From assembly GCF_002263495.1 (NCBI RefSeq), contig NZ_CP022753.1, forward strand, positions 1,116,001-1,180,000: a stretch of DNA of 64,000 nucleotides, given 5' to 3'. The position numbers were made by a program, and so were the translations under genes. The DNA is from Nocardiopsis gilva YIM 90087 (GTDB taxonomy: Bacteria; Actinomycetota; Actinomycetes; Streptosporangiales; Streptosporangiaceae). The notes below the pieces were generated by a model. The model was given only the letters and a program-made list of their open reading frames with translations. It did not search any database and was not told where the DNA came from. How positions within the stretch are numbered: position 1 is the stretch's first letter; each line of letters begins with the position of its first letter. Positions 9,557 through 31,984 of this stretch are shown in pieces.

Positions 9557-10297
9557 TCAGGCCGTGAGGGTGAGTTCGAAGGAGTAGCGCGTCGCGCGGT
9601 AGACGTGCGACCCGACCTCGACCACCCGGCCGATGTCGTCGTAGGCGGTGCGGTCCATCGTGAGCAGCGGCGCACCGCGCGATTCACCGAGGATCCGGGC
9701 CTCGGCCGCCGTGGCGCCCCGGGCGCCGATGCTCTGCGAGGCCATCTTCAGCGTGATACCCGACGCGCGCAGCAGCTGGTAGAGGCCGGTCTCGGCGAGC
9801 TTCTCGCGGGTCAGCTCCACGCGGTCCAGCGTCAGGTAGTTGTGCATGAGTGCCAGCGGCTCGTCGCCCGCGTAGCGCAGGCGTTCCAGCAGGTAGACCT
9901 CGGTCCCGGGGGCGACCTCCAGATTCGCGGCGACCGCGTCCGGGGCGGGGCCCACACTCAGGTCGAGCACCTCGGTGCGCGGGCGCTGGCCGGCCTGGCT
10001 CAGGTCGTCATACAGGCTGGACAGCTCCACCGGACGGCGCACCCGGGGCGTGACCACCTGGGTTCCGACCCCGCGTTTGCGCACCAGCAGCCCACGGTCG
10101 ACCAGGTACTCGATCGCCCGCCGCAGGGTGGGCCGCGACAGGCCGAGCCGTCCGGCGAGCACGACCTCGTTCTCCAGCCGGGTCCCGGCCGGCATCTCGC
10201 CAGCCTGGATGCGCCGCTCCAGTTCCTGGGCGACCTGGAAGTACAGCGGCACCGGGCTGCTGCGGTCGAGGGGGATCGACAGGGGCGACTCTGACAC
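9557..10297 (-). CDS. GntR/HutC-family regulator with UTRA domain, likely iol regulator
   Basis: A 246-residue protein. The N-terminal winged helix (residues about 15-80) contains LSRPTLRRAIEYLVDRGLLV and ends in GVGTQVV. A UTRA effector domain follows (about 95-240; VYLLERLRYAGDEPLALMHNYL). UTRA proteins usually sense a sugar or sugar phosphate. It lies divergent to the inositol genes, so it is probably the repressor of the iol regulon, induced by inositol or an inositol metabolite (inference). The palindrome TGTCTAGACA at 10433, close to the GT-CTA-GAC core bound by HutC-type regulators, is the best operator candidate. Confidence 0.85.
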   Translation of the reverse strand: MSESPLSIPLDRSSPVPLYFQVAQELERRIQAGEMPAGTRLENEVVLAGRLGLSRPTLRRAIEYLVDRGLLVRKRGVGTQVVTPRVRRPVELSSLYDDLSQAGQRPRTEVLDLSVGPAPDAVAANLEVAPGTEVYLLERLRYAGDEPLALMHNYLTLDRVELTREKLAETGLYQLLRASGITLKMASQSIGARGATAAEARILGESRGAPLLTMDRTAYDDIGRVVEVGSHVYRATRYSFELTLTA

Positions 10298-10477: not shown

Positions 10478-10544
10478 CTTTCTCAAGGGCTGTGACCCAC
10501 AGAACAACACCCTGTTGCCTGGATCTACCTGAAAGAGGATGGGT

Positions 10545-11555
10545 ATGCGGATCGGACTCGTCGGCACCGGTCGGATCGGCGCCTCACACGCCGCCGCCAT
10601 CGCGGCGCGCCCCGAGGTCACCGAGCTCCTGCTCGCGGACGCCGACAGGGACCGCGCCCGCGACGTCGCCGGACGCGTCGGCGCCCACGTCGCCGGTGAC
10701 ATCGCCACGCTGCTCTCTCCAGGCGCCGTCGACGGCCTGGTCATCACCGCAGCGACGGCGGCGCACCCGGAGCTCATCCTCTCCGGGGTCCGCGCCGGGA
10801 TCCCGGTCTTCTGTGAGAAGCCGGTGGCGCCCGACGTCCCCGGGACCGTGGAGGTGCTGCGCGAGGTCGAGAAGAGCGGCGTGCAGGTGCACATCGGGTT
10901 CATGCGCCGGTTCGACGCCGGGTACACCCGCGCCCGCCAAGCGCTGCGCGACGGCGAGCTCGGCGAGCTGCACCGCGTGCACGCCGTCACCTGCGACGCC
11001 GCGCCCCCGCCCGCCGCCTACATCCCGACCTCCGGCGGCATCTTCCGCGACTGCCACGTGCACGACTTCGACATCCTGCGCTGGGTCACCGGCCGCGAGG
11101 TCACCGACGTCTACGCCTACGGCGCCAACCGCGGCGCCTCCTACTTCGCCGAGGCCGGGGACGTGGACACCACGGCCGCGGTGCTCCGGATGGACGACGG
11201 AACCATGGTCACCCTGCAAGGGTCGCGCTACAACGGCGGCGGGTATGACGTCCGTATGGAGCTCGCCGGCTCCCGCGGCACCATCGCCGTCGGCCTGGAC
11301 GAGCGCGCCCCCCTCCTCTCCGCCGAAGAGGGCGTCGACTTCCCGACCGGCCAGCCGTGGCAGGAGTTCTGGTCCCGCTTCACTCCCGCCTACGAAGCGG
11401 AGATCGGGGCCTTCACCCGCATGGTCGCCGACGGGGGAGAGAGCCCCTGCACCGTCGCCGACGCTCTGGAGGCCGTGCTCGTGGCCGACGCCGCCGACAA
11501 GTCGATGCGTGAGGGGCGGCCGGTCCAGGTCGCCGAGGTGCGGCCCCAGCTGTAG
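10545..11555 (+). CDS. iolG: Gfo/Idh/MocA dehydrogenase, inositol 2-dehydrogenase-like (first copy)
   Basis: A 336-residue NAD-dependent oxidoreductase. The N-terminal Rossmann fold is MRIGLVGTGRIGASHAAAI, the catalytic-lysine motif is VFCEKPVA (about residues 90-97), and GFMRRFDAGY and FRDCHVHDFDILRW match inositol dehydrogenases. It probably oxidises myo-inositol or an isomer (scyllo- or D-chiro-inositol) to an inosose. ATG 10545 is chosen over 10539 because GAGG (10535-10538) leaves a 6-nt spacer. First gene after the regulated promoter. A second family member lies at 22069, so the two may divide isomers. Confidence 0.82.
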   Translation: MRIGLVGTGRIGASHAAAIAARPEVTELLLADADRDRARDVAGRVGAHVAGDIATLLSPGAVDGLVITAATAAHPELILSGVRAGIPVFCEKPVAPDVPGTVEVLREVEKSGVQVHIGFMRRFDAGYTRARQALRDGELGELHRVHAVTCDAAPPPAAYIPTSGGIFRDCHVHDFDILRWVTGREVTDVYAYGANRGASYFAEAGDVDTTAAVLRMDDGTMVTLQGSRYNGGGYDVRMELAGSRGTIAVGLDERAPLLSAEEGVDFPTGQPWQEFWSRFTPAYEAEIGAFTRMVADGGESPCTVADALEAVLVADAADKSMREGRPVQVAEVRPQL

Positions 11556-11625: not shown

Positions 11626-12630
11626 GTGAAACCCAGTGACCGCCGGCACTCCGATGGCCGATTCGAGGTCATCACGATGGGCCGCGTGGGCGTCGACATC
11701 TACCCGGAGCAGGTGGGTGTCGGGCTGGATCGGGTGCGGTCCTTCGGAAAGTTCATCGGGGGCAGCCCGACCAACGTCGCCGTGGCCGCCGCCCGATACG
11801 GACACAGCGCGGCCCTGATCACCCGCACCGGCGAGGACCCCTTCGGCGCCTTCGTGCACTCCGCCCTGCGCGGCTTCGGTGTGGACGACCGCTTCGTCAG
11901 CCCCGTTCCCGGCCGCCCCACCCCGGTGACCTTCTGCGAGATCTTCCCGCCCGACGACTTCCCCCTCTACTTCTACGGCCGCGACCCCAAGGCCGCCGAC
12001 CTGGAGATCGACGCCGCGGAGCTCGACTACGACGCCATCCGCGCCGCCGACATCTTCTGGGTCACCGTCACCGGCCTGTGCCAGGAGCCCAGCCGCACCG
12101 CGACCCTGGAGGCGCTCAAGGCCCGCGGCAAACGCGGCATCACCATCATCGACCTGGACTACCGCCCGATGTTCTGGGAGTCGCGCGACATCGCCCGCGA
12201 GGTCGTCGCCCAGGCGCTGCCGTATGCCACCGTGGCTGCGGGCAACCTCGACGAGTGGGACACCGCCGTCGGCCGCACCGACCCGAGGTCGGCCGCCACG
12301 GCCGCCCGGGACATCGGTATCGACCTCGCCATCGTCAAGCAGGGCCCCAAGGGCGTCCTCGCGGTGGACGACTCGGGTGAGGTGTCGGTCCCCCCGGTCC
12401 CGGTCGACGTGGTCAACGGGCTGGGCGCGGGCGACGCCTTCGGCGGCGCGCTCTGCCACGGCCTCCTCTCCGGATGGGACACCGAGCACATCATGCGCTT
12501 CGCCAACACGGCCGGTGCCATCGTCGCCTCGCGGCTCTCCTGCTCCGACGCCATGCCCACACAGGAGGAGGTCGAGGCCAAGCTGGCCGCGACCGCCGCG
12601 GGGGCGACCTCGACGGGCGGGAGCAGCTGA
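11626..12630 (+). CDS. iolC: 5-dehydro-2-deoxygluconokinase IolC
   Basis: A 334-residue PfkB-family kinase. It phosphorylates 5-dehydro-2-deoxy-D-gluconate with ATP in the inositol pathway. The family features are GGSPTNVAVAAARYG near residue 50, FYGRDPKAADL, and the C-terminal anion-hole/catalytic motif NGLGAGDAFGGAL. The start is GTG 11626, with GGAGG five bases upstream. The stop TGA shares its A with the ATG of the next gene, so translation is coupled. Confidence 0.9.
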   Translation: MKPSDRRHSDGRFEVITMGRVGVDIYPEQVGVGLDRVRSFGKFIGGSPTNVAVAAARYGHSAALITRTGEDPFGAFVHSALRGFGVDDRFVSPVPGRPTPVTFCEIFPPDDFPLYFYGRDPKAADLEIDAAELDYDAIRAADIFWVTVTGLCQEPSRTATLEALKARGKRGITIIDLDYRPMFWESRDIAREVVAQALPYATVAAGNLDEWDTAVGRTDPRSAATAARDIGIDLAIVKQGPKGVLAVDDSGEVSVPPVPVDVVNGLGAGDAFGGALCHGLLSGWDTEHIMRFANTAGAIVASRLSCSDAMPTQEEVEAKLAATAAGATSTGGSS

Positions 12631-13505
12631 TGTCGACCGACCGACTGCGCGAGATCATCGAGACGCGCGTGCACAACCCCCAGGCGATCGCCGAGGCCGC
12701 CGCGCGGCGGGTGAAGCCCGACTCCCTGGTGGGCGAGCACGGCAAGGCGATGATCATCGCCGCCGACCACCCGGCGCGCGGGGCGCTGCGCGCCGGAGCG
12801 CGGCCCATGGCCATGGCCGACCGGGCCGACCTGCTCGACCGGCTGTGCGCGGCGCTGGCCCGGCCCGGCGTCACCGGGGTCCTGGGCACCGCCGACATCC
12901 TGGAGGACCTGCTGCTGCTCGGAGCGCTGGACGGCAAGAGCGTCTTCGGATCGATGAACCGCGGCGGCCTGGCCGGGGCGTCCTGGGAGATCGACGACCG
13001 GTTCACCGGCTACGACACCGCCGGCATCACCGCCATGGGCTTCGAGGGCGGCAAGATGCTGCTCCGCCTCGACTACAACGACGACCGCACCCCCGCCACC
13101 TTCGAGGCCTGCGCCAAGGCCGTCGACGACCTCAACACGGCGCGGCTCATGGCCATGGTCGAGCCGTTCATCTCGCACCGCACCGACGGCGTCGTCAAGA
13201 ACGACCTGTCGCCGGACGCGGTGACCCGCTCGGTGGCCATCGCCTCCGGCATCGGCCGCTCCTCCGCCTACACCTGGCTGAAGGTCCCGGTGGTGGACGA
13301 GATGGAGCGCGTGCTGGCCGCCTCGACCCTGCCCGCGCTGCTGCTCGGCGGCGAGCTGGCCGCCGATCCCGAGGCCACCTACGCCCGCTGGGGCGCGGCA
13401 CTGAAACTTCCCACGGTCAAGGGCCTGACCGTCGGGCGATCCCTGCTCTACCCCGCCGACGACGACGTCGTCGGCGCCGTCGACACCGCTGTGGGGCTGC
13501 TGTGA
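12630..13505 (+). CDS. Cgl0159-family (beta/alpha)8 protein, candidate aldolase of inositol catabolism
   Basis: A 291-residue TIM-barrel protein of the DeoC/LacD-like group seen between iolC and iolB or iolA in Corynebacterium-type iol clusters. Motifs include AMIIAADHPARGAL, GVLGTADILEDL and ALKLPTVKGLTVGRSLLYP, with candidate Schiff-base lysines in the barrel (MLLRLDYN, TWLKVPV). It is well placed to cleave 5-dehydro-2-deoxygluconate 6-phosphate to malonic semialdehyde and dihydroxyacetone phosphate, the IolJ step, which otherwise has no gene here (inference). It overlaps iolC by one base and iolB by four. Confidence 0.72.
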   Translation: MSTDRLREIIETRVHNPQAIAEAAARRVKPDSLVGEHGKAMIIAADHPARGALRAGARPMAMADRADLLDRLCAALARPGVTGVLGTADILEDLLLLGALDGKSVFGSMNRGGLAGASWEIDDRFTGYDTAGITAMGFEGGKMLLRLDYNDDRTPATFEACAKAVDDLNTARLMAMVEPFISHRTDGVVKNDLSPDAVTRSVAIASGIGRSSAYTWLKVPVVDEMERVLAASTLPALLLGGELAADPEATYARWGAALKLPTVKGLTVGRSLLYPADDDVVGAVDTAVGLL

Positions 13506-14392
13506 GCACTTCCGAATCCAAGCACTACCTTCCGGCCGGAAGCACCGCCTCCGGCCCGTTCCGCACCGTCGTCACGCCCGAGTCCGCGGGATGGAGCTAC
13601 TCCGGGCTGCGCGTACTGGAACTGGCGCCCGGCGGCAGCCAGGAGGTCACCACCGGGGACTCCGAGACCCTGGTGCTGCCCCTCAACGGCGGCTGCACGG
13701 TGACCGTCGACGGCCGGACGTTCGAGGTCACCGGCCGCCAGGACGTGTTCTCCCGGGTCACCGACTTCGTCTACCTGCCGCGCGAGGCCACCGCGACCGT
13801 CGCCAGCACCGGCGGCGGCCGGTTCGCGCTGCCCGCGTCGCGCTGCGGGAAGCGTCTGCCGGCCCGCTACGGCGCCGCCGAGGACGTGCCGGTCGAGCTG
13901 CGCGGAGCCGGGCAGTCCAGCCGCCAGGTGAACAACTTCTGCACCCCGCAGACCTTCGAGTGCGACAAGCTCATCGCCTGCGAGGTGCTCACGCCCTCCT
14001 CGAACTGGTCCTCCTACCCGCCGCACAAGCACGACGAGGCCACCGAGACCGAGCGCGAACTGGAGGAGATCTACTACTTCGAGGTCGCCGACGGCCCGGT
14101 CGGCCCCGGCGTCGGCTACCAGCGGGTCTACGGCACCGAGCAGCGGCCGATCGACGTGTTCGCCGAGGTCCGCAGCGAGGACGTGGTGCTCATCCCGCAC
14201 GGCTGGCACGGCCCGTCCATGGCCGTGCCCGGCTACGACCTCTACTACCTCAACGTCATGGCGGGGCCGGGGGACGACCGCGCCTGGCTCATCTGCGACG
14301 ACCCGGCGCACGGCTGGGTCCGCCAGACCTGGGTCGACCAGGCCATCGACGCCCGCCTCCCGCTGTACACGGCCGAGGGAAAGGAGCAGTGA
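13502..14392 (+). CDS. iolB: 5-deoxy-glucuronate isomerase IolB
   Basis: A 296-residue bicupin isomerase converting 5-deoxy-D-glucuronate to 5-dehydro-2-deoxy-D-gluconate. The C-terminal cupin shows the metal ligands in YPPHKHDEATETERELEEIYYFEV and later IPHGWHGPSMAVPGYDLYYLN; these are split here as PPHKHDE and IPHGWHGP. FALPASRCGKRLP is typical of the N-terminal half. The GTG start at 13502 overlaps the preceding TGA (GTGA). Confidence 0.92.
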   Translation: MSTSESKHYLPAGSTASGPFRTVVTPESAGWSYSGLRVLELAPGGSQEVTTGDSETLVLPLNGGCTVTVDGRTFEVTGRQDVFSRVTDFVYLPREATATVASTGGGRFALPASRCGKRLPARYGAAEDVPVELRGAGQSSRQVNNFCTPQTFECDKLIACEVLTPSSNWSSYPPHKHDEATETERELEEIYYFEVADGPVGPGVGYQRVYGTEQRPIDVFAEVRSEDVVLIPHGWHGPSMAVPGYDLYYLNVMAGPGDDRAWLICDDPAHGWVRQTWVDQAIDARLPLYTAEGKEQ

Positions 14393-14397
14393 GCCCG

Positions 14398-16287
14398 GTG
14401 ACCGAGACCGTCCGGCTGACGACCGCCCAGGCGCTGGTCCGCTTCCTCGCCGCGCAGTACTCCGAGCGCGACGGCGTCGAGCAGCGCCTGATCCCCGGCG
14501 TGTGGGGCATCTTCGGGCACGGCAACGTGGCGGGGCTGGGCCAGGCCCTGCTGCAGGCCGCCACCACCGGCGAGACAGCCCCCCACCACCTCCCCTACTA
14601 CCTCGCCCGCAACGAGCAGGGCATGGTGCACAGCTCGGTGGGCTTCGCCAAGATGCGCGACCGGCTGCAGGCCTTCGCCTGCACCGCCTCCACCGGCCCC
14701 GGCTCCACCAACATGGTCACCGGCGCCGCGCTGGCCACCACCAACCGCATGCCGGTGCTGCTCCTGCCCAGCGACATGTTCGCCACCCGCGGCCCCGACC
14801 CGGTGCTGCAGCAGCTGGAGGACACCCGCGGCGGCGACGTCTCGGTCAACGACGCGCTGCGGCCGGTGTCGAAGTACTGGGACCGCGTCACCCGCCCTGA
14901 GCAGCTCGTCCCCGCCGCGCTGGCCGCCATGCGGGTGCTCACCGACCAGGTGGAGACGGGCGCGGTCACGCTGTGCCTGCCCCAGGACGTGCAGGCCGAG
15001 GCCTACGACTGGCCGGTGGAGTTCTTCCGCAAGCGGGTGTGGCACATCGACCGCCCGCGGCCGGACACCGCCGCGCTGGCCCGCGCGGTCGATGCGCTGC
15101 GCGGCGCGAAGAAGCCGCTGATCGTGGCGGGCGGCGGCGTCGTCTACTCCCAGGCCATGGCGGCGCTGTGCGACTTGGCCGCGGCGACCGGCATCCCGGT
15201 GGCCGACACCCACGCGGGCAAGGGCGCGGTCCCCTGGGACCACCCGTGCGCCGTCGGCGGGCTCGGCTCCACCGGCACCGCGGCCGCCAACACCCTGGCC
15301 CGCGAGGCCGACGTGGTGCTCGGCGTCGGCACCCGCTACAGCGACTTCACCACGGCGAGCCACACCGTCTTCGCCAACCCCGACGTCCGGTTCGTCAACC
15401 TCAACATCGCGCGCCTCGACGCCGCCAAGCACCAGGCGTCGATGCTCGTCGCCGACGCGCGGACCGGCCTGGAGGCGCTCCGCCGCGAGCTCGACGGATG
15501 GCAGGTGGAGCACGCCCACCGGCAGCGCGCCCGGGAGCTGGCCGCCGAGTGGGCGCGGATCACCGACGAGTGCTACCACGTCGACCACGGTCCGCTGCCC
15601 GCGCAGACGGCGGTGCTGGGCGCGCTCAACGAAACGCTCGGCCCGCGCGACGTCGTCATCAACGCCGCGGGGAGCATGCCCGGTGACCTGCAGATGCTGT
15701 GGCGCGCCAGCGACCCCAAGGCCTATCACGTCGAGTACGCCTACTCCTGCATGGGCTACGAGGTGGCCAGTGGCACCGGCGTCAAGATGGGCGACCCGAG
15801 CCGCGAGGTGGTCGTCCTGGTCGGAGACGGCTCCTACCTGATGATGGCCCAGGAGATCGTGACCATGGTCTCCGAGGGCATCAAGGTCATCATCGTCGTG
15901 GTGCAGAACCACGGGTTCGCCTCGATCGGGTCCCTGTCGGAAGACCTGGGGTCGCAGCGCTTCGGCACCAAGTACCGCTACCGCGACGAGAAGAGCGGGC
16001 TGCTCGAAGGCGATGTCCTCCCCGTCGACCTGGCCGCCAACGCCGCCAGCCTCGGCGCCGACGTCATCCGCGCCGATGGCATCAAAGAGTTCCGCGAGGC
16101 CATCGCGCGGGCCAAAGCCGCCGACACCACGACCGTCGTGCACATCGAGACCGACCTGTACGGGCCCAACCCGCCCGGTTCGGCCTGGTGGGACGTGCCG
16201 GTGAGCCAGGTGGCCGACCTCGACAGCACCCGTGACGCCGCCGTCACCTACGCCGAGCACAAGGCCCAGCAGCGCCACTACCTGTGA
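14398..16287 (+). CDS. iolD: 3D-(3,5/4)-trihydroxycyclohexane-1,2-dione hydrolase IolD
   Basis: A 629-residue thiamine diphosphate enzyme that opens the inositol-derived ring. It begins VTETVRLTTAQALVRFLAAQ as in family members. The N-terminal Pyr domain holds WGIFGHGNVAGLGQAL, and the C-terminal PP domain holds the ThDP/Mg motif VVLVGDGSYLMM followed by VVQNHGFASIGSLS. The GTG at 14398 is preferred over 14389, since AAGGAG (14381-14386) would be only 2 nt from the earlier codon. The coding region almost touches iolB. Confidence 0.92.
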   Translation: MTETVRLTTAQALVRFLAAQYSERDGVEQRLIPGVWGIFGHGNVAGLGQALLQAATTGETAPHHLPYYLARNEQGMVHSSVGFAKMRDRLQAFACTASTGPGSTNMVTGAALATTNRMPVLLLPSDMFATRGPDPVLQQLEDTRGGDVSVNDALRPVSKYWDRVTRPEQLVPAALAAMRVLTDQVETGAVTLCLPQDVQAEAYDWPVEFFRKRVWHIDRPRPDTAALARAVDALRGAKKPLIVAGGGVVYSQAMAALCDLAAATGIPVADTHAGKGAVPWDHPCAVGGLGSTGTAAANTLAREADVVLGVGTRYSDFTTASHTVFANPDVRFVNLNIARLDAAKHQASMLVADARTGLEALRRELDGWQVEHAHRQRARELAAEWARITDECYHVDHGPLPAQTAVLGALNETLGPRDVVINAAGSMPGDLQMLWRASDPKAYHVEYAYSCMGYEVASGTGVKMGDPSREVVVLVGDGSYLMMAQEIVTMVSEGIKVIIVVVQNHGFASIGSLSEDLGSQRFGTKYRYRDEKSGLLEGDVLPVDLAANAASLGADVIRADGIKEFREAIARAKAADTTTVVHIETDLYGPNPPGSAWWDVPVSQVADLDSTRDAAVTYAEHKAQQRHYL

Positions 16288-16314: not shown

Positions 16315-17820
16315 GTGAGCACCACCAACACCATCCAGCACTGGATCAACGGGGCCGCCACCCCGGGGGCCTCCACCCGCACCGCACCGGTGTGGAACCC
16401 GGCCACCGGCGCCGAGCAGGCCGCGGTCCTGATGGCCGAGACGAGTGACGTCGACACCGCCGTCGTCGCGGCCGCGACGGCCTTCGAGACCTGGGGCGAG
16501 TCCTCGCTCACCCAGCGGACCCGCGTCATGTTCCGGCTGCGCGAGCTGCTGGTCGAGCACGAGGACGAGCTGGCCGAGATCATCGCCGCCGAGCACGGCA
16601 AGGTGATCGACGACGCCCGCGGCGAGATCGTGCGCGGCCGCGAGATCGTGGAGTACGCCTGCGGCATCATCAGCCACCTCAAGGGCGGTTACTCCGACCA
16701 GATCTCCACCGGGATCGACTCCTTCGACTTCCGCCAGCCGCTGGGCGTGGTCGCCGGGATCACCCCGTTCAACTTCCCCATCATGGTGCCGCTGTGGATG
16801 CACCCCATCGCGATCGCCTGCGGCAACACCTTCGTCCTCAAGCCCAGCGAGCGCGACCCGTCGGCGTCCAACTTCGTCGCCGAGCTGTACAAGCGGGCCG
16901 GGCTGCCCGACGGCGTGTTCAACGTCGTGCACGGCGACAAGGCCGCCGTCGACGCGGTCCTGGACCACCCCGGCATCGAGGCGGTCTCCTTCGTCGGCTC
17001 CACCCCCATCGCTAAGTACGTGCACGAGCGCGCCACCGCCTCGGGCAAGCGCGTGCAGGCGCTGGGCGGCGCCAAGAACCACGCCGTGGTTCTTCCCGAC
17101 GCCGACCTGGAGTACGCCGCCAACCACCTGACCGCCGCCGCGTTCGGCTCGGCCGGGCAGCGGTGCATGGCGATCTCCGCCGCCGTGGCGGTGGGCGAGG
17201 CGGCCGACGCGCTGCTGCCGGTCCTCGCCGAGAAGGCCAAGGCCATCAAGGTCGGCCCCGGCCAGGACGTCGGCAACGACATGGGCCCGGTCATCACCGC
17301 CCAGGCCCGCGACCGCGTCACCTCGTATGTCGCCTCCGGCGTCGAGCAGGGCGCGGTGGCCGTGGTCGACGGCCGCGACCTCAAGGTCGAGGGGCACGAG
17401 GACGGCTTCTTCGTCGGTCCCACGCTGCTGGACCGGGTCACCAAGGAGATGGACGTCTACACAGACGAGGTCTTCGGCCCGCTGCTGGTGGTCGTCCGCG
17501 CAGCCGACCTGGACGAGGCGATCGAGCTGATCAACGCCAACCCGTACGGCAACGGCACCGCGATCTTCACCGGCGACGGCGAGTCCGCCCGCCGCTTCCA
17601 GCGCGGGGTCCACGTCGGGATGATCGGCGTCAACGTGCCGATCCCGGTGCCGATGTCGCACTACTCCTTCGGCGGCTGGAAGGACTCGCTGTTCGGCGAC
17701 AACCACATCCACGGCCCTGAGGGCGTCCACTTCTACACCCGGGCCAAGGTCGTCACCAGCCGCTGGCCGCACGTCTCCCGGTCCGTCGAGGCCGCGTTCA
17801 ACTTCCCGACCCACGGCTAG
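16315..17820 (+). CDS. mmsA: CoA-acylating methylmalonate/malonate semialdehyde dehydrogenase
   Basis: A 501-residue aldehyde dehydrogenase family member, equivalent to B. subtilis IolA. It converts malonic semialdehyde to acetyl-CoA and CO2 with NAD and CoA, the last step of inositol breakdown; it could also serve valine catabolism. HWINGAATPG starts the protein. GITPFNFPIMVPLWM is diagnostic of the MmsA branch, and the nucleophile is Cys284 in GSAGQRCMAIS. The start GTG at 16315 has AAGGA eight bases upstream. It follows iolD by 27 bp. Confidence 0.92.
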   Translation: MSTTNTIQHWINGAATPGASTRTAPVWNPATGAEQAAVLMAETSDVDTAVVAAATAFETWGESSLTQRTRVMFRLRELLVEHEDELAEIIAAEHGKVIDDARGEIVRGREIVEYACGIISHLKGGYSDQISTGIDSFDFRQPLGVVAGITPFNFPIMVPLWMHPIAIACGNTFVLKPSERDPSASNFVAELYKRAGLPDGVFNVVHGDKAAVDAVLDHPGIEAVSFVGSTPIAKYVHERATASGKRVQALGGAKNHAVVLPDADLEYAANHLTAAAFGSAGQRCMAISAAVAVGEAADALLPVLAEKAKAIKVGPGQDVGNDMGPVITAQARDRVTSYVASGVEQGAVAVVDGRDLKVEGHEDGFFVGPTLLDRVTKEMDVYTDEVFGPLLVVVRAADLDEAIELINANPYGNGTAIFTGDGESARRFQRGVHVGMIGVNVPIPVPMSHYSFGGWKDSLFGDNHIHGPEGVHFYTRAKVVTSRWPHVSRSVEAAFNFPTHG

Positions 17821-17859: not shown

Positions 17860-18780
17860 ATGACGGAGATGAGCGAGAAGCTGGTCCTGGGCTCCGCCCC
17901 CGACTCCTGGGGCGTGTGGTTCCCGGAGGACGAGTACCAGACTCCGTGGAACCGGTTCCTCGACGAGCTCGCCGAGTCCGGCTACGACTGGCTCGAGCTC
18001 GGCCCCTACGGCTACCTGCCCACCGACCCGAAGCAGCTCGCCGACGAGGTCGGCAAGCGGAACCTGAAGGTCTCCGGCGGCACCGTGTTCGGCTCGCTGC
18101 ACCGCCCGGAGCGCTGGGACGACATGCTCTCCACCGTGCGCAAGGTCGCCGAGCTGACCGCAGCGGTCGGAGCGCACCACCTGGTGTTCATCCCAACGAT
18201 GTTCCGCGACGAGAAGACCGGGGAGTTCTCCGAGCCGCCGACGCTCGACGACGGACAGTGGACCGCGCTGACCAAGGCCGCCGACGAGCTCGGCAAGATC
18301 CTGCTCAACGACTACGACGTCCGGCTCTGCCTGCACTCGCACGCCGACTCCCACATCCAGACCCAGCCCGAGATCGAGCGGTTCCTCGACGGCACCGACT
18401 CCGACCTCGTCTCCCTGTGCCTGGACACCGGGCATGTCGCCTACGGGGGCGGCGACGCCGTCGACCTGATCAGCCGCTACTCCGAGCGGGTCGGATACGT
18501 GCACATCAAGCAGATGGACCCGGAGATCATCCGGCAGGTCAACGAGGAGCGCCTCTCCTTCGGCGAGGCCGTCAAGCGCGGCGTGTGCGTCGAGCCGCCC
18601 GCGGGCGAGCCCGCACCGGCCGCCGTGGTCGACGCGCTCAAGGAGGTCGACGCCCGCCTCTTCGTGATCGTCGAGCAGGACCTCTACCCGTGCGAGCCGG
18701 ATGTGCCCAAGCCCATCGCGGTGCGCACCCGCAAGTACCTCAACAGCTGCGGGCTGGGAGCCCGTTACCAGAAGGCGTGA
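17860..18780 (+). CDS. iolE: Inosose dehydratase-like TIM barrel (IolE)
   Basis: A 306-residue xylose-isomerase-like barrel. SAPDSWGVWFPED near residue 12, HLVFIP, LCLHSHADSHIQT and LCLDTGHVAYGGGD are the metal-binding strands of IolE-type proteins. It should dehydrate scyllo-inosose to the trihydroxycyclohexanedione used by IolD. An inosose isomerase (IolI) role cannot be excluded by eye. ATG 17860 has GAAAGG eight bases upstream. It is the last catabolic gene before the transporter genes. Confidence 0.85.
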   Translation: MTEMSEKLVLGSAPDSWGVWFPEDEYQTPWNRFLDELAESGYDWLELGPYGYLPTDPKQLADEVGKRNLKVSGGTVFGSLHRPERWDDMLSTVRKVAELTAAVGAHHLVFIPTMFRDEKTGEFSEPPTLDDGQWTALTKAADELGKILLNDYDVRLCLHSHADSHIQTQPEIERFLDGTDSDLVSLCLDTGHVAYGGGDAVDLISRYSERVGYVHIKQMDPEIIRQVNEERLSFGEAVKRGVCVEPPAGEPAPAAVVDALKEVDARLFVIVEQDLYPCEPDVPKPIAVRTRKYLNSCGLGARYQKA

Positions 18781-18951: not shown

Positions 18952-19932
18952 ATGAACTACACCCGCAAACTCACGATCGCCCTCGCCGGTGCCGCCAGCA
19001 TCGTCCTGGCCGCCTCGGCCTGCAGTTCCGAGGGCGGTAAGCAGGAGACGGCCGCCGGCGGCGCCGACACGCCGGAGCTCACCATCGCGATGATCACCCA
19101 CGAGGTCCCCGGAGACTCCTTCTGGGACAAGGTGCGCGCCGGTGCCGAGGCCGCGGCGGAGAAGAGCAACGTCACCCTCGAGTACTCCTCCGACCCGGAG
19201 GCCACCAAGCAGGCCACGCTGATCCAGACCGCCATCGACAAGAAGGTCGACGGCATCGCGGTCACCCTGGCCAAGCCCGAGGCGCTCAAGGGCGCGATCA
19301 AGAAGGCCAACGAAGCCGGGATCCCCGTCGTCGGCCTCAACGCCGGGCTCGACCACTGGGAGGAGCTCGGGCTCACCGAGTACTTCGGCACCGACGAGTC
19401 CGTGGCGGGTGAGGCCTTCGGCGAGCGGCTCAACGAGGTCGGGGCCGAGAAGACGCTGTGCGTGATCCACGAGCAGGGCCACGTCGCCCTGGAGACCCGC
19501 TGCTCCTCGCTCGCGAAGACGTTCGACGGCGATTCCGAGACCCTGTACGTCGACGGGGCGAGCATGCCCGACGTGAAGTCGAGCATCACCTCCAAGCTCC
19601 AGGAGGACAAGGACGTCGACTACGTCGCCACGCTCGGCGCCCCCTACGCGATGGGCGCACTGGACGCGGTCGACAACGCGGGAAGCGACGCCAAGGTCGC
19701 GACCTTCGACACCGACAAGAACCTGATCGGCGCGATCCAGGACGGCCTCGTGGAGTGGGCCGTGGACCAGCAGCCCTACCTGCAGGGCTACCTGGCCGTC
19801 GACGGCCTGTGGCTCTACAACGTCAACGGCAACGTCTCCGGCGGCGGCAAGGCCGTGCTGACCGGTCCGAGCTTCATCGACAAGAGCAACATCGACGACA
19901 TCAAGGTGTTCGCTGAGAAGGGCACCCGGTGA
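18952..19932 (+). CDS. Sugar (inositol) ABC transporter substrate-binding lipoprotein
   Basis: A 326-residue periplasmic-binding-protein-like lipoprotein. The signal peptide ends in the lipobox LAASAC (lipidated Cys near residue 24). The mature protein is a type 1 sugar-binding fold: TIAMITHEVPGDSFWDKV, then KVDGIAVTLAKPEALKGAI and GIPVVGLNAG, as in RbsB/IbpA-like proteins. From its position among iol genes the ligand is probably myo-inositol. SD GAGAGG precedes ATG 18952. It is followed by the permease after 6 bp. Confidence 0.87.
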   Translation: MNYTRKLTIALAGAASIVLAASACSSEGGKQETAAGGADTPELTIAMITHEVPGDSFWDKVRAGAEAAAEKSNVTLEYSSDPEATKQATLIQTAIDKKVDGIAVTLAKPEALKGAIKKANEAGIPVVGLNAGLDHWEELGLTEYFGTDESVAGEAFGERLNEVGAEKTLCVIHEQGHVALETRCSSLAKTFDGDSETLYVDGASMPDVKSSITSKLQEDKDVDYVATLGAPYAMGALDAVDNAGSDAKVATFDTDKNLIGAIQDGLVEWAVDQQPYLQGYLAVDGLWLYNVNGNVSGGGKAVLTGPSFIDKSNIDDIKVFAEKGTR

Positions 19933-19938
19933 CCCACC

Positions 19939-21006
19939 ATGAGCCAGACACTGACCGCTAGGGAGCCCGTGTCCGAGACGTCCGAGAAGACGTTGCGGGT
20001 GGGCCAGCGCTCCCTGCTGAGTCGCTTTATGCGCCGCCCCGAAGTGGGCTCGCTCCTGGGCGCGATCGTTGTCTTCGTGCTGTTCTTCGCCCTGGCCGAG
20101 CCGTTCCGGCAGGCGTCGTCGCTGATGACGGTGCTGTACGCCAGTTCGATCATCGGCATCATGGCCGTGGGCGTCGCGCTGCTGATGATCGGCGGGGAGT
20201 TCGACCTGTCCGCCGGTGTCTCCGTCATCACCGCGTCGCTGGCCGCTGCGATCCTCAGCTTCCAGCTCAACCTCAACGTTTGGGCGGGCGCCGGCCTCGC
20301 ACTGGCCCTCGCGCTGACCATCGGGTTCGTCAACGGTGTGATCCTGGTGCGCACGAAGCTGCCCAGCTTCCTGGTCACACTGTCGATGTTCCTGATGCTG
20401 CAGGGGCTCAACATCGCGGTGACCAAGCTGATCACCGGCAAGGTGTCGACCGACAGCATCCGCAATATGGACGGGTTCGCCTCCGCGCAGGTGGTGTTCT
20501 CCTCCTACGTGCCCATTCCCGGCCTGGGCGTCAGCGTCCGGATCACCGTGCTGTGGTGGATTCTGTTCGTCGCCGTGGCCACGTGGGTGCTGATGCGCAC
20601 CAAGGTCGGCAACTGGATCTACGCCGTCGGCGGCAACGCCGAGAGCGCCCGCGCCGTCGGCGTGCCGGTGGCCAAGGTCAAGATCGGGCTGTTCATGACC
20701 GTCGGGTTCTTCGCCTGGTTCAGCGGGATGCACCTGCTGATGGCGTCCGGCGTGCAGCAGTCCGGTGAGGGCGTCGGCAACGAGCTGCTCTACATCATGG
20801 CCGCCGTGGTCGGCGGATGCCTGCTCACCGGTGGCTACGGAACCGTCATCGGCGCGGCCATCGGTTCGCTCATCTACGGCATGACCAAGCAGGGCATCGT
20901 CTACGCCGGCTGGGACAACAACTGGATCATGTTCTTCGTCGGAGCGATGCTGCTGCTCGCCGTCGTCGTCAACATGTGGGTCCGCACCCAGAGTTCGAAG
21001 AGGTGA
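19939..21006 (+). CDS. Ribose/inositol-type ABC transporter permease
   Basis: A 355-residue RbsC-family permease with about eight to ten membrane segments between residues 35 and 345. The hallmark GGEFDLSAGVSVITASLAAA (about residues 85-104) is present, as is VGGNAESARAVGVPV, the coupling-helix region for the ATPase. It would form the membrane channel as a homodimer. It sits between the binding protein (6 bp upstream) and the ATPase gene (7 bp downstream). Confidence 0.88.
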   Translation: MSQTLTAREPVSETSEKTLRVGQRSLLSRFMRRPEVGSLLGAIVVFVLFFALAEPFRQASSLMTVLYASSIIGIMAVGVALLMIGGEFDLSAGVSVITASLAAAILSFQLNLNVWAGAGLALALALTIGFVNGVILVRTKLPSFLVTLSMFLMLQGLNIAVTKLITGKVSTDSIRNMDGFASAQVVFSSYVPIPGLGVSVRITVLWWILFVAVATWVLMRTKVGNWIYAVGGNAESARAVGVPVAKVKIGLFMTVGFFAWFSGMHLLMASGVQQSGEGVGNELLYIMAAVVGGCLLTGGYGTVIGAAIGSLIYGMTKQGIVYAGWDNNWIMFFVGAMLLLAVVVNMWVRTQSSKR

Positions 21007-21013
21007 CCGCGGG

Positions 21014-22018
21014 GTGAATGCGATGACCAAGACCACCAAGCCGGAAACAGGAGTGGCCGCGCCGGCGCCCCGGCGGCACGGCGACTCCTCGGCGCCGGTC
21101 CTTCAGCTGAAGGGCGTCGGCAAGTCATTCGGCAACATCAAGGCGCTGTCCGGGATCGACCTCAAGGTCAGCTCCGGAGAGGTGACCTGCATCCTTGGCG
21201 ACAACGGTGCCGGGAAGTCCACCCTGATCAAGATCATCGCCGGTCTGCACGCGCCCACCGCGGGCGAGTACATGGTCGACGGTGAGCCGGTGCACTTCTC
21301 CTCGCCGCGCGAGGCCCTGGACCGCGGGATCGCCACCGTCTACCAGGACCTGGCGATGGTGTCGCTGATGCCGGTCTGGCGGAACTTCTTCCTCGGATCG
21401 GAGCTGCGCACCGGGTTCGGCCCGGTCAAGATGCTCGAAGTCGACAAGATGCGCCGCATCGCCGACGAAGAGCTGAAGAAGATGGGCATCGACCTGCCCG
21501 ACATCGACGCGCCAATCAGCAACCTCTCGGGCGGCCAGAAGCAGGTCGTGGCGATCGCCCGCGCGGTCTACTTCGGCGCCCGCGTCCTGATCCTGGACGA
21601 GCCGACGGCGGCGCTCGGCGTCAAGCAGTCGGGTGTGGTGCTGAAGTACATCAACGCGGCGCGCGAGGCGGGACTGGGCGTCATCTTCATCACCCACAAC
21701 CCGCACCACGCGTTCATGGTCGGCGACCACTTCGCGGTGCTCAAGCTCGGCCAGATGGAGCTGGACGCTCCCCGCTCCGAGCTGAGCCTGGACGACCTCA
21801 CGCACCACATGGCGGGTGGCGCGGAGCTCGACGCGCTGGAGCACGAGCTCACGCGCGGCGGGACACCCGAGGTCCATCCCTTGCACGACGTCTCGGCAAA
21901 GGAGCTGAAGGGCGTCGGCGCGGCGATCCAGGCGGCGGACGCGGTCTCCGAGGAGGGAGCGGAGAGCGCGTCGGCCGAAGCCTCCGGAGGCGCCGCCACG
22001 AAACCGTCGGCCGACTGA
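21014..22018 (+). CDS. Sugar ABC transporter ATP-binding protein (single NBD)
   Basis: A 334-residue ATPase with one nucleotide-binding domain: Walker A GDNGAGKST, signature NLSGGQKQ, Walker B VLILDEPTAALG and His switch ITHNPHH. RbsA-type proteins usually carry two fused NBDs. This single-domain form is like FrcA-type actinobacterial and rhizobial transporters and must dimerise. The last 80 residues are an Ala/Glu-rich tail of unknown role. GTG 21014 and ATG 21023 are both possible starts. Confidence 0.87.
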   Translation: MNAMTKTTKPETGVAAPAPRRHGDSSAPVLQLKGVGKSFGNIKALSGIDLKVSSGEVTCILGDNGAGKSTLIKIIAGLHAPTAGEYMVDGEPVHFSSPREALDRGIATVYQDLAMVSLMPVWRNFFLGSELRTGFGPVKMLEVDKMRRIADEELKKMGIDLPDIDAPISNLSGGQKQVVAIARAVYFGARVLILDEPTAALGVKQSGVVLKYINAAREAGLGVIFITHNPHHAFMVGDHFAVLKLGQMELDAPRSELSLDDLTHHMAGGAELDALEHELTRGGTPEVHPLHDVSAKELKGVGAAIQAADAVSEEGAESASAEASGGAATKPSAD

Positions 22019-22068: not shown

Positions 22069-23073
22069 ATGACCGTCAACGTCGGCGTCATCGGCGCTGG
22101 CATGATCGGCGCCGACCACGTCCGCAGACTCTCCACCATCGTGAGCGGGGCCCAGGTCACCGCGGTGACCGACATCGACGCCGATCGGGCCGCGTCGGTC
22201 GCCGCGGGCGTGGGCGCACGATCGCTGGCCACCGGACAGGAGGTGATCGACGCCGCGGACGTGGACGCGGTGCTGGTCACCTCCTGGGGGCCGGCGCACG
22301 CGGAGTCGGTGCTCGGCGCCATCGCGGCGGGCAAGCCGGTGTTCTGTGAGAAGCCGCTGGCCACCACGGCCGAGGACTGCCACAAGATCATCGACGCCGA
22401 GACCGCGCACGGGCGGCGCCTGGTGCAGGTCGGGTTCATGCGCCGGTACGACGCCGGGTACCGCGCTATGAAGCAGGTCATCGACAGCGGGGAGATCGGA
22501 ACCCCGCTGATGGTGCACTGCGCGCACCGCAACCCGACCGTCCCGGAGCGCTACCACTCCGAGATGGCCACGCACGACACCGCCGTGCACGAGATCGACA
22601 CGGTCCGCTGGCTGCTGGGCGACGAGATCGTCTCGGCGCAGGTGCTCACCCCCCGCAGGACCAGCCACCGGTTCGAGCACCTGCAGGACCCGCAGATCAT
22701 GCTGTTCGAGACCGCCGAGGGCGCCCGCGTCGACGTCGAGGTGTTCGTCAACTGCCAGTACGGCTACGACATCCAGTGCGAGGCCGTGGGGGAGACGGGC
22801 ACCGTGCGGCTGCCCGACCCCGCCGCGCCGGTGGTGCGCAGCGCCGGGCGGCAGAGCGGCCCCGTGCTGCAGGACTGGAAGGACCGCTTCGCCGAGGCCT
22901 ACGACGTGGAGATCCAGGAGTGGGTGGACTCGGTCGCGGCGGGCGCGGTGAGCGGCCCCAGCTCGTGGGACGGCTACGCCGCGGCGATGATCTGCGACGC
23001 CAACGTGGAGGCGCTGCACACCGGGGAGATCGTCAGCACCGGCCTGAAGGACCGTCCGGCCTTCTACGCCTGA
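22069..23073 (+). CDS. iolG: Inositol 2-dehydrogenase (second copy)
   Basis: A 334-residue Gfo/Idh/MocA dehydrogenase: MTVNVGVIGAGMIGADHV Rossmann motif, VFCEKPLATTAEDC with the catalytic Lys, VGFMRRYDAGY, and THDTAVHEIDTVRWLLGD carrying the Asp/His pair of inositol dehydrogenases. It fits canonical IolG better than the copy at 10545. ATG 22069 has AGGAAGGA eight bases upstream, and the gene follows the ATPase by 50 bp. The product is scyllo-inosose, the IolE substrate. Confidence 0.88.
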   Translation: MTVNVGVIGAGMIGADHVRRLSTIVSGAQVTAVTDIDADRAASVAAGVGARSLATGQEVIDAADVDAVLVTSWGPAHAESVLGAIAAGKPVFCEKPLATTAEDCHKIIDAETAHGRRLVQVGFMRRYDAGYRAMKQVIDSGEIGTPLMVHCAHRNPTVPERYHSEMATHDTAVHEIDTVRWLLGDEIVSAQVLTPRRTSHRFEHLQDPQIMLFETAEGARVDVEVFVNCQYGYDIQCEAVGETGTVRLPDPAAPVVRSAGRQSGPVLQDWKDRFAEAYDVEIQEWVDSVAAGAVSGPSSWDGYAAAMICDANVEALHTGEIVSTGLKDRPAFYA

Positions 23074-23095: not shown

Positions 23096-23962
23096 GTGAA
23101 GATCGCCCTTGATCCGTACATGTTCCGCGGTCTGCCGATGGCCGAGATGGTGCGGACCGTCGCGGACATCGGCTACCGCCATATCGAGCTGTCGCCGCGT
23201 GCGGAGTTCATGCCGTTCTTCCTGCATCCGCGGGCCGACGACGACAAAGTCGCCGAGCTGCGCAAAGTGCTGCGGGAGACCGGGGTGGAGCTGTCCAGCG
23301 TGCTGCCGCTGTACAAGTGGTCCAGCCCGATCGAGGAGGAGCGCCAGGCGGCGGTCCGCTACTGGAAGCGGATGATCGAGGTCACTGTCGAGCTGGGCTG
23401 CGACCTGATGAACTCCGAGTTCAACGGGCGCCCGGAGAAGGCGGCGGAGAGCGAGGCCGCGTTCTGGAAGTCGATGGAGGAGCCGCTGCCCGTCTTCGAG
23501 CGCGAGGGGGTCTCCCTCAACCTCGAAGCGCACCCGGGTGACTTCTGCGAGGTCAACGAGCCGGCCGTGGACCTGGTGCGGGCCATCAACAAGCCCTGGG
23601 TGAACTACCTGTACTGCGCGCCGCACACCTTCCACCTGTCCGGGGACGACCCGGGCGCGGACATCCGCGGGATGATGCGGTACGCCGGGGACAAGCTCCA
23701 GCACCTGCACATCGCGGACTCCTTCAACCACAAGGGGTCCTCGGGGCTGCGCTACATCCTCAAGCCGCCGGGGACCCCGGCGCGGATCCACCAGCACCTG
23801 GACATCGGGCAGGGCGAGGTGGACTGGGACGTGTTCTTCTCGACGCTGCGCGACATGGAGTTCGACGGGGTCGCCACCGTCTGCGTGTTCGCCTGGGAGG
23901 AGCGCGCCCGGGAGTCGAGCGAGTTCATGCTGCAGCGCGTCAGCAAGGAGCTGGCGGCCTGA
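23096..23962 (+). CDS. iolH: IolH-like sugar phosphate isomerase/epimerase
   Basis: A 288-residue TIM barrel, matching the length of B. subtilis IolH. It opens MKIALDPYMFRGL and contains NLEAHPGDFCEVNEPAVDL, YCAPHTFHLSGDD and HLHIADSFNH, giving conserved Glu/His/Asp metal ligands. IolH's exact reaction is not settled. GTG start at 23096, 22 bp after iolG. Last gene of the inositol run before a strong terminator. Confidence 0.82.
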   Translation: MKIALDPYMFRGLPMAEMVRTVADIGYRHIELSPRAEFMPFFLHPRADDDKVAELRKVLRETGVELSSVLPLYKWSSPIEEERQAAVRYWKRMIEVTVELGCDLMNSEFNGRPEKAAESEAAFWKSMEEPLPVFEREGVSLNLEAHPGDFCEVNEPAVDLVRAINKPWVNYLYCAPHTFHLSGDDPGADIRGMMRYAGDKLQHLHIADSFNHKGSSGLRYILKPPGTPARIHQHLDIGQGEVDWDVFFSTLRDMEFDGVATVCVFAWEERARESSEFMLQRVSKELAA

Positions 23963-24143: not shown

Positions 24144-24179
24144 TAGTTTTCGCGGCGACAAGTCTGTAGAGTGCCGCGC

Positions 24180-24953
24180 ATGGAGCTGAATGGAGTTGCC
24201 GCCCTGGTGTCCGGCGGCGCGAGCGGACTGGGTGAAGCCACCGTCAAGGAACTGGCCACGGCGGGTGCGACCGTCGTCATCGCCGACCTGAACGCCGAGC
24301 GCGGCGAGGCGCTGGCCAAGGAGGTCGGTGGCGTCTTCGTCACCACCGACGTGTCCGACGAGGACCAGGTCGCCGCTGCGGTCCAAGCCGCCGTCGACAC
24401 GGGGAAGCCGCTGCGCGTGGCCGTCTCCTGCGCCGGGATCGGCTGGGCGACCCGCACGGTCAACCGCGACGGGCAGCCGCACGACCTCGCGAGCTACAAG
24501 AAGGTCATCGACGTCAACCTGATCGGCACGTTCAACGTGGTGCGCCTGGCGGCGGCCGCGATGGGCAAGACCGACCCGATCAACGAGGACGGCGAGCGCG
24601 GCGCGATCGTCAACACCGCCTCGCTGGCCGGGATCGAGGGGCAGATCGGACAGATCGCCTACTCGTCCTCCAAGGGCGGCATCATCGGCATGACCGTCCC
24701 GGCCGCGCGCGACCTCGCCGCGATCGGCGTCCGCGTCAACACGGTGGCGCCGGGCATCCTGGACACGCCCATCTACGGCCAGGGGCCGGAGTCCGACGCG
24801 TTCAAGGAGCGCCTGGCCGCACCGGTGCCCTTCCCCAAGCGCCTGGGGACCGCCGCGGAGTTCGGCAAGCTGGTCCGCTCGCTGGTCGAGATCAGCTACA
24901 TCAACGCGGAGGTGGTCCGGATCGACGGCGGCCTGCGCATGCAGCCCAAGTAA
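24180..24953 (+). CDS. SDR-family 3-hydroxyacyl-CoA dehydrogenase-like oxidoreductase
   Basis: A 257-residue short-chain dehydrogenase. The cofactor motif [11 protein letters not shown] and [11 protein letters not shown] (Asp favouring NAD) are near the N-terminus, and the catalytic Tyr/Lys lie in [14 protein letters not shown]. The sequence resembles type 2 3-hydroxyacyl-CoA dehydrogenases (HSD17B10-like). With the crotonase 13 bp downstream it would perform consecutive hydration and oxidation of an enoyl-CoA. ATG 24180 is used; the GTG at 24171 gives a slightly longer form with no better ribosome site. Confidence 0.82.
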
Positions 24954-24966
24954 GGGAAAGGCCATC

Positions 24967-25731
24967 ATGAGCGACGAGGTGCTGTACACGGCCGAGGACG
25001 GCGTCGCCGTCATCACCATCAACCGGCCCAAGGCGAAGAACTCCGTCAACGCGGCGGTGGCGCGCGGCATCGCCGATGCCCTGGACGACCTCGACGCCCG
25101 CACGGACCTGGTTGTCGGCATCATCACCGGCGCGGAGGGCACGTTCTGCGCGGGGATGGACCTGAAGGCGTTCATGCAGGGCGAGGTCCCGATCGTCGAG
25201 GGCCGCGGCTTCGCCGGATTCGCCCAGCGTGGCCCGAAGAAGCCCCTGATCGCCGCGGTCGAGGGCTACGCCCTGGCCGGCGGCTTCGAGGCCGTACTCG
25301 CCTGCGACCTCGTGGTGGCCGCCGAGGACGCCACATTCGGCATCCCCGAGGTCACCCGCGGCCTGGTCGCCGGCGGCGGCGGACTGCTCCGTCTGCAGCA
25401 CCGCATCCCGCGCAACATCGCCATGGAACTCGCCCTCACCGGCGACAAGGTCCCGGCCCCGCGCATGGCCGAGCTCGGCCTGGTCAACCACGTCACCCCC
25501 AACGGCGGTGCCCTGGCCGAAGCCAAGGCTCTCGCCACCAGGATCGCCGCCAACGCACCGATGGCGGTCGCGGTGACCAAGCGGGTGATCACGGAATCCA
25601 CCGACTGGCCGACCGACACCATGTGGTCCCAGCAAGACGAGCTCATCAGCCCCGTCTTCACCAGCCACGACGCCATGGAAGGCGCCGCAGCCTTCGCCGA
25701 ACGCCGCCCCCCGGTCTGGAAGGGCGAGTGA
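24967..25731 (+). CDS. Enoyl-CoA hydratase/isomerase family protein (crotonase)
   Basis: A 254-residue crotonase. Oxyanion-hole segments are EGTFCAGMDLKAF and AVEGYALAGGFEAVLACDLVVA. IPEVTRGLVAGGGGLLRL contains the catalytic Glu position (E in IPEV). It acts on a short- or branched-chain enoyl-CoA; the substrate is not readable. GGGAAAGG lies upstream of ATG 24967. It forms a pair with the preceding SDR and is followed by a hairpin terminator. Confidence 0.85.
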   Translation: MSDEVLYTAEDGVAVITINRPKAKNSVNAAVARGIADALDDLDARTDLVVGIITGAEGTFCAGMDLKAFMQGEVPIVEGRGFAGFAQRGPKKPLIAAVEGYALAGGFEAVLACDLVVAAEDATFGIPEVTRGLVAGGGGLLRLQHRIPRNIAMELALTGDKVPAPRMAELGLVNHVTPNGGALAEAKALATRIAANAPMAVAVTKRVITESTDWPTDTMWSQQDELISPVFTSHDAMEGAAAFAERRPPVWKGE

Positions 25732-29177: not shown

Positions 29178-29427
29178 GTCGGCCTCGTTCTCGCTCGCGT
29201 GGGGGAATGGGCACGACACTGTGCACCGGTGCTCTGGATGACTGGAGGGCTGAGTGGGGGATGGCGGAGGTCGGGAACTGTCATTTGTGGCGAAATGACT
29301 GATGAGTCCGCGTCTTCTCTATTATCCAGGGCAACCAGCGTGCGGCGGAATGGGCGGGGTCGTACGTCGGGCCGGACGCCGTGCGCCGGGGTATCGGCGC
29401 CCGGCCCGGGTCTGTGTCGGTGCCGTG

Positions 29428-30435: not shown

Positions 30436-30468
30436 GGTTCCTCCCCGTAATTCAGCGTCGGAAAAGCG

Positions 30469-31884: not shown

Positions 31885-31984
31885 GCGGATGTGCCTCCCT
31901 GTTCGCCGTTCGCCTGGTCCGCTGCTGCGCTGCCCTGCCATGTCCTGCTGGTCCGCCCGCGGCTCGGCTCTTCCCCGGTGCCGG

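Follow-up and report, generated by a model that had tools for sequence, protein, structure and literature searches.

The chemistry of the inositol breakdown pathway is established. In Bacillus subtilis its aldolase reaction (EC 4.1.2.29), the same as the one we propose here for the Cgl0159 family, is carried out by IolJ, which we take to be a class II enzyme of family PF01116. Class I aldolases, in turn, carry their Schiff-base lysine on strand beta-6. Cgl0159 of Corynebacterium glutamicum (PF22649), presumably the gene that is also labelled cg0198, is known from the solved structure 3FOK, whose entry title is 'uncharacterized protein Cgl0159'. In the accessible text of PMC4609165, cg0198 appears only as 'conserved hypothetical'. 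For nine bacteria with fitness data, Price and co-workers (PMC9007349) have proposed that the aldolase is DUF2090, fused to the kinase IolC; according to the available portion of that 2022 study, Lys126 and Glu164 of LacD are conserved in DUF2090, and its 26 inositol users comprise 16 with IolC-DUF2090 and two IolJ genomes, so that by subtraction eight genomes, which may or may not be actinobacteria, would be left without an aldolase.

The window analysed here, 64,000 nucleotides of the Nocardiopsis gilva YIM 90087 genome (contig NZ_CP022753.1, positions 1,116,001 to 1,180,000), contains an inositol cluster (Table 1) in which a gene for a protein of the Cgl0159 family lies between iolC and iolB. 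The open reading frame is a real gene of 291 residues that starts with ATG. The last base of the iolC stop codon TGA (12628-12630) is the first base of this ATG, and its own stop overlaps the GTG start codon of iolB by four bases (13502-13505), as iolB and iolD likewise do (14389-14392). The first-pass annotation had described the gene as joined to both iolC and iolB, and joined it is, by overlaps of one and four bases that may couple translation of the three genes. The accompanying list of inositol genes stands for iolB, iolC, iolD and mmsA, which score above their NCBIfam cut-offs; iolE and both iolG genes score below theirs, and the gene called iolH is recognisable only as a sugar-isomerase-type barrel. 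The window IolC scores 185 bits against NF047869, the model of the kinase-DUF2090 fusion that requires 600, and does not qualify as a fusion. As far as sequence matches go, the aldolase step is the single inositol step for which the cluster holds no other candidate.

Table 1. Features of the inositol cluster and of the aldolase candidate (window coordinates)
Feature	Position	Strand	Basis
Divergent GntR/UTRA regulator, candidate inositol regulator	9557..10297	-	PF00392 and PF07702; putative role
iolG-like inositol 2-dehydrogenase (first)	10539..11555	+	TIGR04380, 311 bits, below cut-off 355
iolC, 5-dehydro-2-deoxygluconokinase, 334 aa, without DUF2090	11626..12630	+	TIGR04382, 366.5 bits (cut-off 300); start by inspection
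TGATG, iolC stop and aldolase-candidate start sharing one base	12628..12632	+	Sequence; putative coupling
Cgl0159-family class I aldolase candidate, 291 aa	12630..13505	+	PF22649, 3FOK, model
Codon of Lys142, beta-4, proposed counterpart of LacD Lys126	13053..13055	+	38/38; strand 140-147; putative role
Codon of Glu178, beta-5, proposed counterpart of LacD Glu164	13161..13163	+	38/38; strand 174-185; putative role
Codon of Lys218, proposed Schiff-base lysine, beta-6 (TWLKVP)	13281..13283	+	38/38; strand 215-220; putative role
GTGA, aldolase-candidate stop and iolB start, 4-base overlap	13502..13505	+	Sequence
iolB, 5-deoxyglucuronate isomerase	13502..14392	+	TIGR04378, 308 bits (cut-off 205)
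iolD, trihydroxycyclohexanedione acylhydrolase	14389..16287	+	TIGR04377, 910 bits (cut-off 715)
mmsA/iolA, CoA-acylating (methyl)malonate-semialdehyde dehydrogenase	16315..17820	+	TIGR01722, 717 bits (cut-off 448.5)
iolE-like inosose dehydratase	17860..18780	+	Best NCBIfam TIGR04379, 150 bits, below cut-off 290; PF01261
Second iolG-like dehydrogenase	22069..23073	+	NF052679, 482 bits, below cut-off 540
iolH-like sugar-phosphate isomerase/epimerase barrel	23096..23962	+	PF01261, 178 bits

The three genes at 18952-22018, flanked by iolE and the second iolG, resemble, by eye, the lipoprotein, permease and ATPase of a sugar ABC transporter, and probably serve inositol uptake. Directly 3' of the inositol genes on the plus strand (24171-25731) lie what appear by eye to be a short-chain dehydrogenase gene and an enoyl-CoA hydratase-like gene. 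What looks like a set for reductive pyrimidine or hydantoin breakdown lies on the minus strand at 27591-32827, where genes resembling, by eye, those of a permease, a luciferase-like oxidoreductase, a dihydropyrimidinase/hydantoinase and an amidohydrolase are found.

In a Pfam search at E 0.1 the only family that the 291-residue protein matched was PF22649, Cgl0159-like (405.2 bits, cut-off 27), with positions 2-251 of the 251-position profile, that is, the whole domain, covered; PF01116, the family of class II IolJ, gave no match in that search, and no NCBIfam model matched the protein. Its sole close solved relative is 3FOK (E 3.9e-92). The genome, a single contig of 6.14 Mb rated 100% complete, has one PF22649 gene. 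It also has one PF01116 gene, which lies outside the window and is the housekeeping aldolase FbaA (TIGR01520, 423 bits, above cut-off; also PRK09197), and a hidden IolJ is thereby ruled out. The first-pass annotation had noted that the cluster lacks a class II IolJ, which is so, and had named a separate iolJ elsewhere as the finding that would overturn its proposal; the search of the complete genome was negative. A hidden DUF2090 aldolase is ruled out as well, with no PF09863 match in the complete genome at E 0.001.

We predicted the structure of the protein from 38 aligned family sequences, its own included. The model is a TIM barrel (mean pLDDT 93.1) with strands at residues 40-45, 83-86, 104-108, 140-147, 174-185, 215-220, 236-240 and 263-268. 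When solved structures were searched with this model, 3FOK ranked first (Z 44.4, rmsd 1.1, 288 aligned residues, 54% identity) and MJ0400 second (Z 27.1, rmsd 2.5, 237 aligned), with further matches to archaeal class I FBA (Z 25.6-25.8), LsrF (24.8-25.2), YihT (22) and LacD (about 21); Foldseek placed the same group (MJ0400, archaeal FBA, LsrF, YihT and LacD) first. Apart from 3FOK, all of the best 50 matches (Z 17.8-44.4) bear the title aldolase, ADH synthase, LsrF or YihT, and we take these to be class I; the absence of DeoC structures from these 50 has no bearing against a likeness to DeoC. The earlier label 'DeoC/LacD-like' was roughly right in that LacD is among the best solved matches, but PF01791 found no match in the protein at E 0.1. 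Archaeal class I FBA (1W8S, 2YCE), MJ0400 (2QJG) and LsrF (3GLC) have the fold in common with the Cgl0159 family at Z 25-27, and its Gly-Arg motif is aligned in archaeal FBA and MJ0400, whereas the identity to these proteins is 12-18% and their substrates are different.

Asp46, His47, Lys142, Glu178, Lys218, Gly240-Gly241 and Gly269-Arg270 are invariant in all 38 sequences, the window protein included. Asp46-His47 follows beta-1, Gly240-Gly241 sits at the end of beta-7 and Gly269-Arg270 comes after beta-8; the only invariant lysines are Lys142 on beta-4 and Lys218 on beta-6. The model has both a barrel of the type expected of a class I aldolase and an invariant lysine, Lys218, on strand beta-6. 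In low-scoring alignments to archaeal FBA (E 0.06-0.2), Lys218 falls opposite a glycine, beside the lysine motif, and for this reason the putative Schiff-base lysine was assigned by strand.

The same comparison can be extended to DUF2090, the alternative partner of IolC, for which the same reaction has been proposed and which differs by its fusion to the kinase. The DUF2090 domain of ten actinobacterial IolC fusions was modelled less surely (pLDDT 74.8), its model being nearest to 8TNF and LacD. Invariant in all ten are Asp32 (beta-1), Lys129 (beta-4), Glu167 (beta-5), Lys199 (beta-6) and Gly257-Arg258 (after beta-8), and thus, by predicted strands and not by superposition, DUF2090 and Cgl0159 have the order Asp, Lys, Glu, Lys, Gly-Arg along the barrel in common. 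The motif around Lys199 is WWKLPP in most of the fusions and the Cgl0159 consensus is TWLKLP, each then followed by Gly-Arg. Comparison of the two profiles gave a weak match (probability 7%, E 0.0048) over a C-terminal stretch with the TWLKLP/WWKLPP and Gly-Arg motifs, and the DUF2090 profile had no match among solved chains at E 1. Since the link by sequence is weak, it is the predicted fold and the order of the residues that connect the two families.

To see how the families are distributed, we used 296 genomes of the window's phylum, counting any match at E 0.001 as IolB, matches above 600 bits as IolD (two of these in pieces), and matches above 300 bits as Cgl0159 or DUF2090. Cgl0159 was present in 29 of the 51 genomes with IolB and IolD and in none of the 245 others. 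Ten of the 51, and a single genome from outside this group, carried DUF2090, and the two families occurred together in none of the 296 genomes. Fisher's test gives 1.2e-26 for the co-occurrence and 5e-5 for the exclusion, with relatedness between genomes ignored. These counts leave out weak PF22649 matches of at most 34.4 bits (17 of 46 genomes, eight over the 27-bit cut-off) and PF09863 matches below 135 bits (31 of 42 genomes). Among 14 named control genomes, three had an IolB match: C. glutamicum, which also matched PF22649 (as did Haloferax), a Caulobacter, which also matched PF09863 (as did Lactococcus), and B. subtilis, whose IolJ is known and which matched neither. For PF22649, as for PF09863, one of the two matches was over cut-off. 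Note that stand-alone proteins of about 300 residues with modest DUF2090 similarity (127-134 bits) are found in other Actinomycetota (loci L127-L130).

When the best 25 of 31 strong Cgl0159 copies were viewed as loci, iolC was just upstream in 24; in the remaining one (G083) Cgl0159 is the first gene of an operon that also contains iolB and mmsA, and a divergent GntR-type gene precedes it. Over 105 loci, the window included, iolC ends at most 15 nt from the Cgl0159 start in 97, and the distance is -14 to +97 nt in 100; choosing the start closest to the iolC stop biases these distances towards small values, and the closest relatives account for 80 of the loci. The adjacency of iolC and Cgl0159 is more than chance. 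Nine plasmid records, all actinobacterial, also matched, in which the gene is named aldolase, deoxyribose-phosphate aldolase (three of the nine) or hypothetical protein.

The predicted fold, the conserved residues, the gene order, the phyletic pattern and the exclusion of DUF2090 all agree and thereby support the suggestion of the first-pass annotation that this gene supplies the missing inositol aldolase. Judging from this sequence and model evidence, the Cgl0159 family very probably uses a Schiff-base mechanism to split 5-dehydro-2-deoxygluconate 6-phosphate, as a stand-alone aldolase of EC 4.1.2.29. The enzyme would be a metal-independent class I aldolase acting on the product of IolC, 5-dehydro-2-deoxy-D-gluconate 6-phosphate, in which the C5 ketone would form an imine with Lys218 on beta-6, acid-base chemistry would fall to Lys142 and Glu178, and the Gly240-Gly241 and Gly269-Arg270 loops would hold the 6-phosphate. 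Cleavage between C3 and C4 would yield dihydroxyacetone phosphate and malonate semialdehyde, the latter to be turned into acetyl-CoA by MmsA, encoded next door.

More broadly, Cgl0159 is likely to be a third, separately recruited family of inositol aldolases, in addition to class II IolJ and fused DUF2090, and to be the main one among Actinomycetes, with kinase and aldolase inherited and exchanged as a unit, either fused or as overlapping genes. One family of genomes (f19) seems, by sequence comparison, to have swapped kinase and aldolase in this way. Two of its members (G174 and G216) have IolC fused to DUF2090, and a third with the same genus label (G184) has iolC and Cgl0159. Identity between G184 and the other two is 80-84% for iolD, 70% for iolB and 38-40% for iolC, and the G184 iolC is 60% identical to that of the window. 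The G184 assembly has many contigs, with iolD in two pieces; in G155, of the same family, the Cgl0159 arrangement lies within a single contig.

Twelve of the 51 genomes with IolB and IolD have neither Cgl0159 nor DUF2090 (G055, G059, G066, G070, G108, G179, G193, G196, G200, G223, G235 and G285). Profiles of Cgl0159, DUF2090, LacD-like and class II aldolases found no match in the regions examined around their clusters, some of these regions being cut by contig ends; the loci of all but G285 (L165-L176) showed no Cgl0159, DUF2090 or class II aldolase in their clusters. Twenty neighbouring ORFs from 11 of these genomes, picked by codon-position GC, included no aldolase (one matched no family), and neither did four more in G200, a genome whose iolC shares 89% identity with the one in G184. 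In G285 (L177, 9700-10700) iolC runs straight into an iolB that misses its first ~30 codons, and it looks from the sequence as if Cgl0159 and the start of iolB had been deleted together. In genomes with neither family the aldolase step can apparently be supplied from elsewhere. These twelve genomes indicate that the step can become unlinked from the cluster, or be lost altogether, and position in the cluster alone is therefore no proof of function.

It is also these genomes, with no aldolase in the cluster parts examined and with G200 retaining nearly the same iolC without Cgl0159, that speak for the possibility that cleavage of the inositol intermediate is a side activity of FbaA and that the Cgl0159 protein has some other job in the cluster. 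We consider this improbable: it would leave no step for a gene that is conserved, overlaps its neighbours and encodes an aldolase-like active site, it does not explain why 29 of 29 Cgl0159 genomes have IolB and IolD, why there is no overlap with DUF2090 or why the f19 pattern arose, and some of the genomes with neither family show no PF01116 gene among the matches listed. Quite improbable, too, is that the protein is a class I aldolase of inositol catabolism for a neighbouring substrate, such as a phosphate derived from a different isomer of inositol, and that the main cleavage takes place elsewhere. A second Cgl0159 copy in Streptomyces coacervatus (L041) fits such a role, having no iolC within its 18.9 kb and being surrounded by a sugar ABC transporter and by IolG-like and short-chain dehydrogenases; yet the same genome also has a standard copy (L072), and in nearly all loci the gene is paired with the one for IolC, which makes the classical substrate. 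That the protein is a deoxyribose-phosphate aldolase, as three of the nine plasmid records name it, can be dismissed almost outright, given that it matches no NCBIfam model and neither TIGR00126 nor PF01791 at E 0.1, that the only PF01791 gene of the genome is a separate DeoC (TIGR00126, 175 bits, over cut-off), and that its neighbours in nearly all loci are inositol genes.

The aldolase reading of Cgl0159 has a precedent in a name. The '[form 2]' name of 5-dehydro-2-deoxygluconate-6-phosphate aldolase, a SEED/PATRIC designation, is given in one paper for a protein family that Clavibacter has in common with plasmids; the accessible text of that paper contains no locus tags and cites no experiment for the name. 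On plasmid pCI3 the one annotated gene that fits it is the homologue of Cgl0159 that follows iolC; in the part viewed, 100,000 of 103,451 bases with an incomplete gene table, no other gene has an aldolase-like name except for a transaldolase. We infer that SEED/PATRIC apparently already names the Cgl0159 family as this enzyme. The names 'Cgl0159' and '3fok' were not found in the open-access literature searched, and searches on iolJ and C. glutamicum, on DUF2090 and on the enzyme name returned no test of the family in the accessible text of the papers, PMC9430895, PMC2597717 and PMC11065229 included. To this the present analysis adds the test across the complete genome, the pattern of mutual exclusion, the residues proposed for catalysis and phosphate binding, and the apparent exchange of kinase and aldolase as one unit.

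Inositol clusters occur in 48% of 5,473 Actinobacteria species, as stated in the available portion of PMC9430895, and annotated genomes of this bacterial group often leave the aldolase gene without a name. Naming the Cgl0159 family would correct the 'deoxyribose-phosphate aldolase' labels, would give a function to 3FOK, a structure released in 2009 without one, and would close the aldolase step in many actinobacterial inositol genomes.
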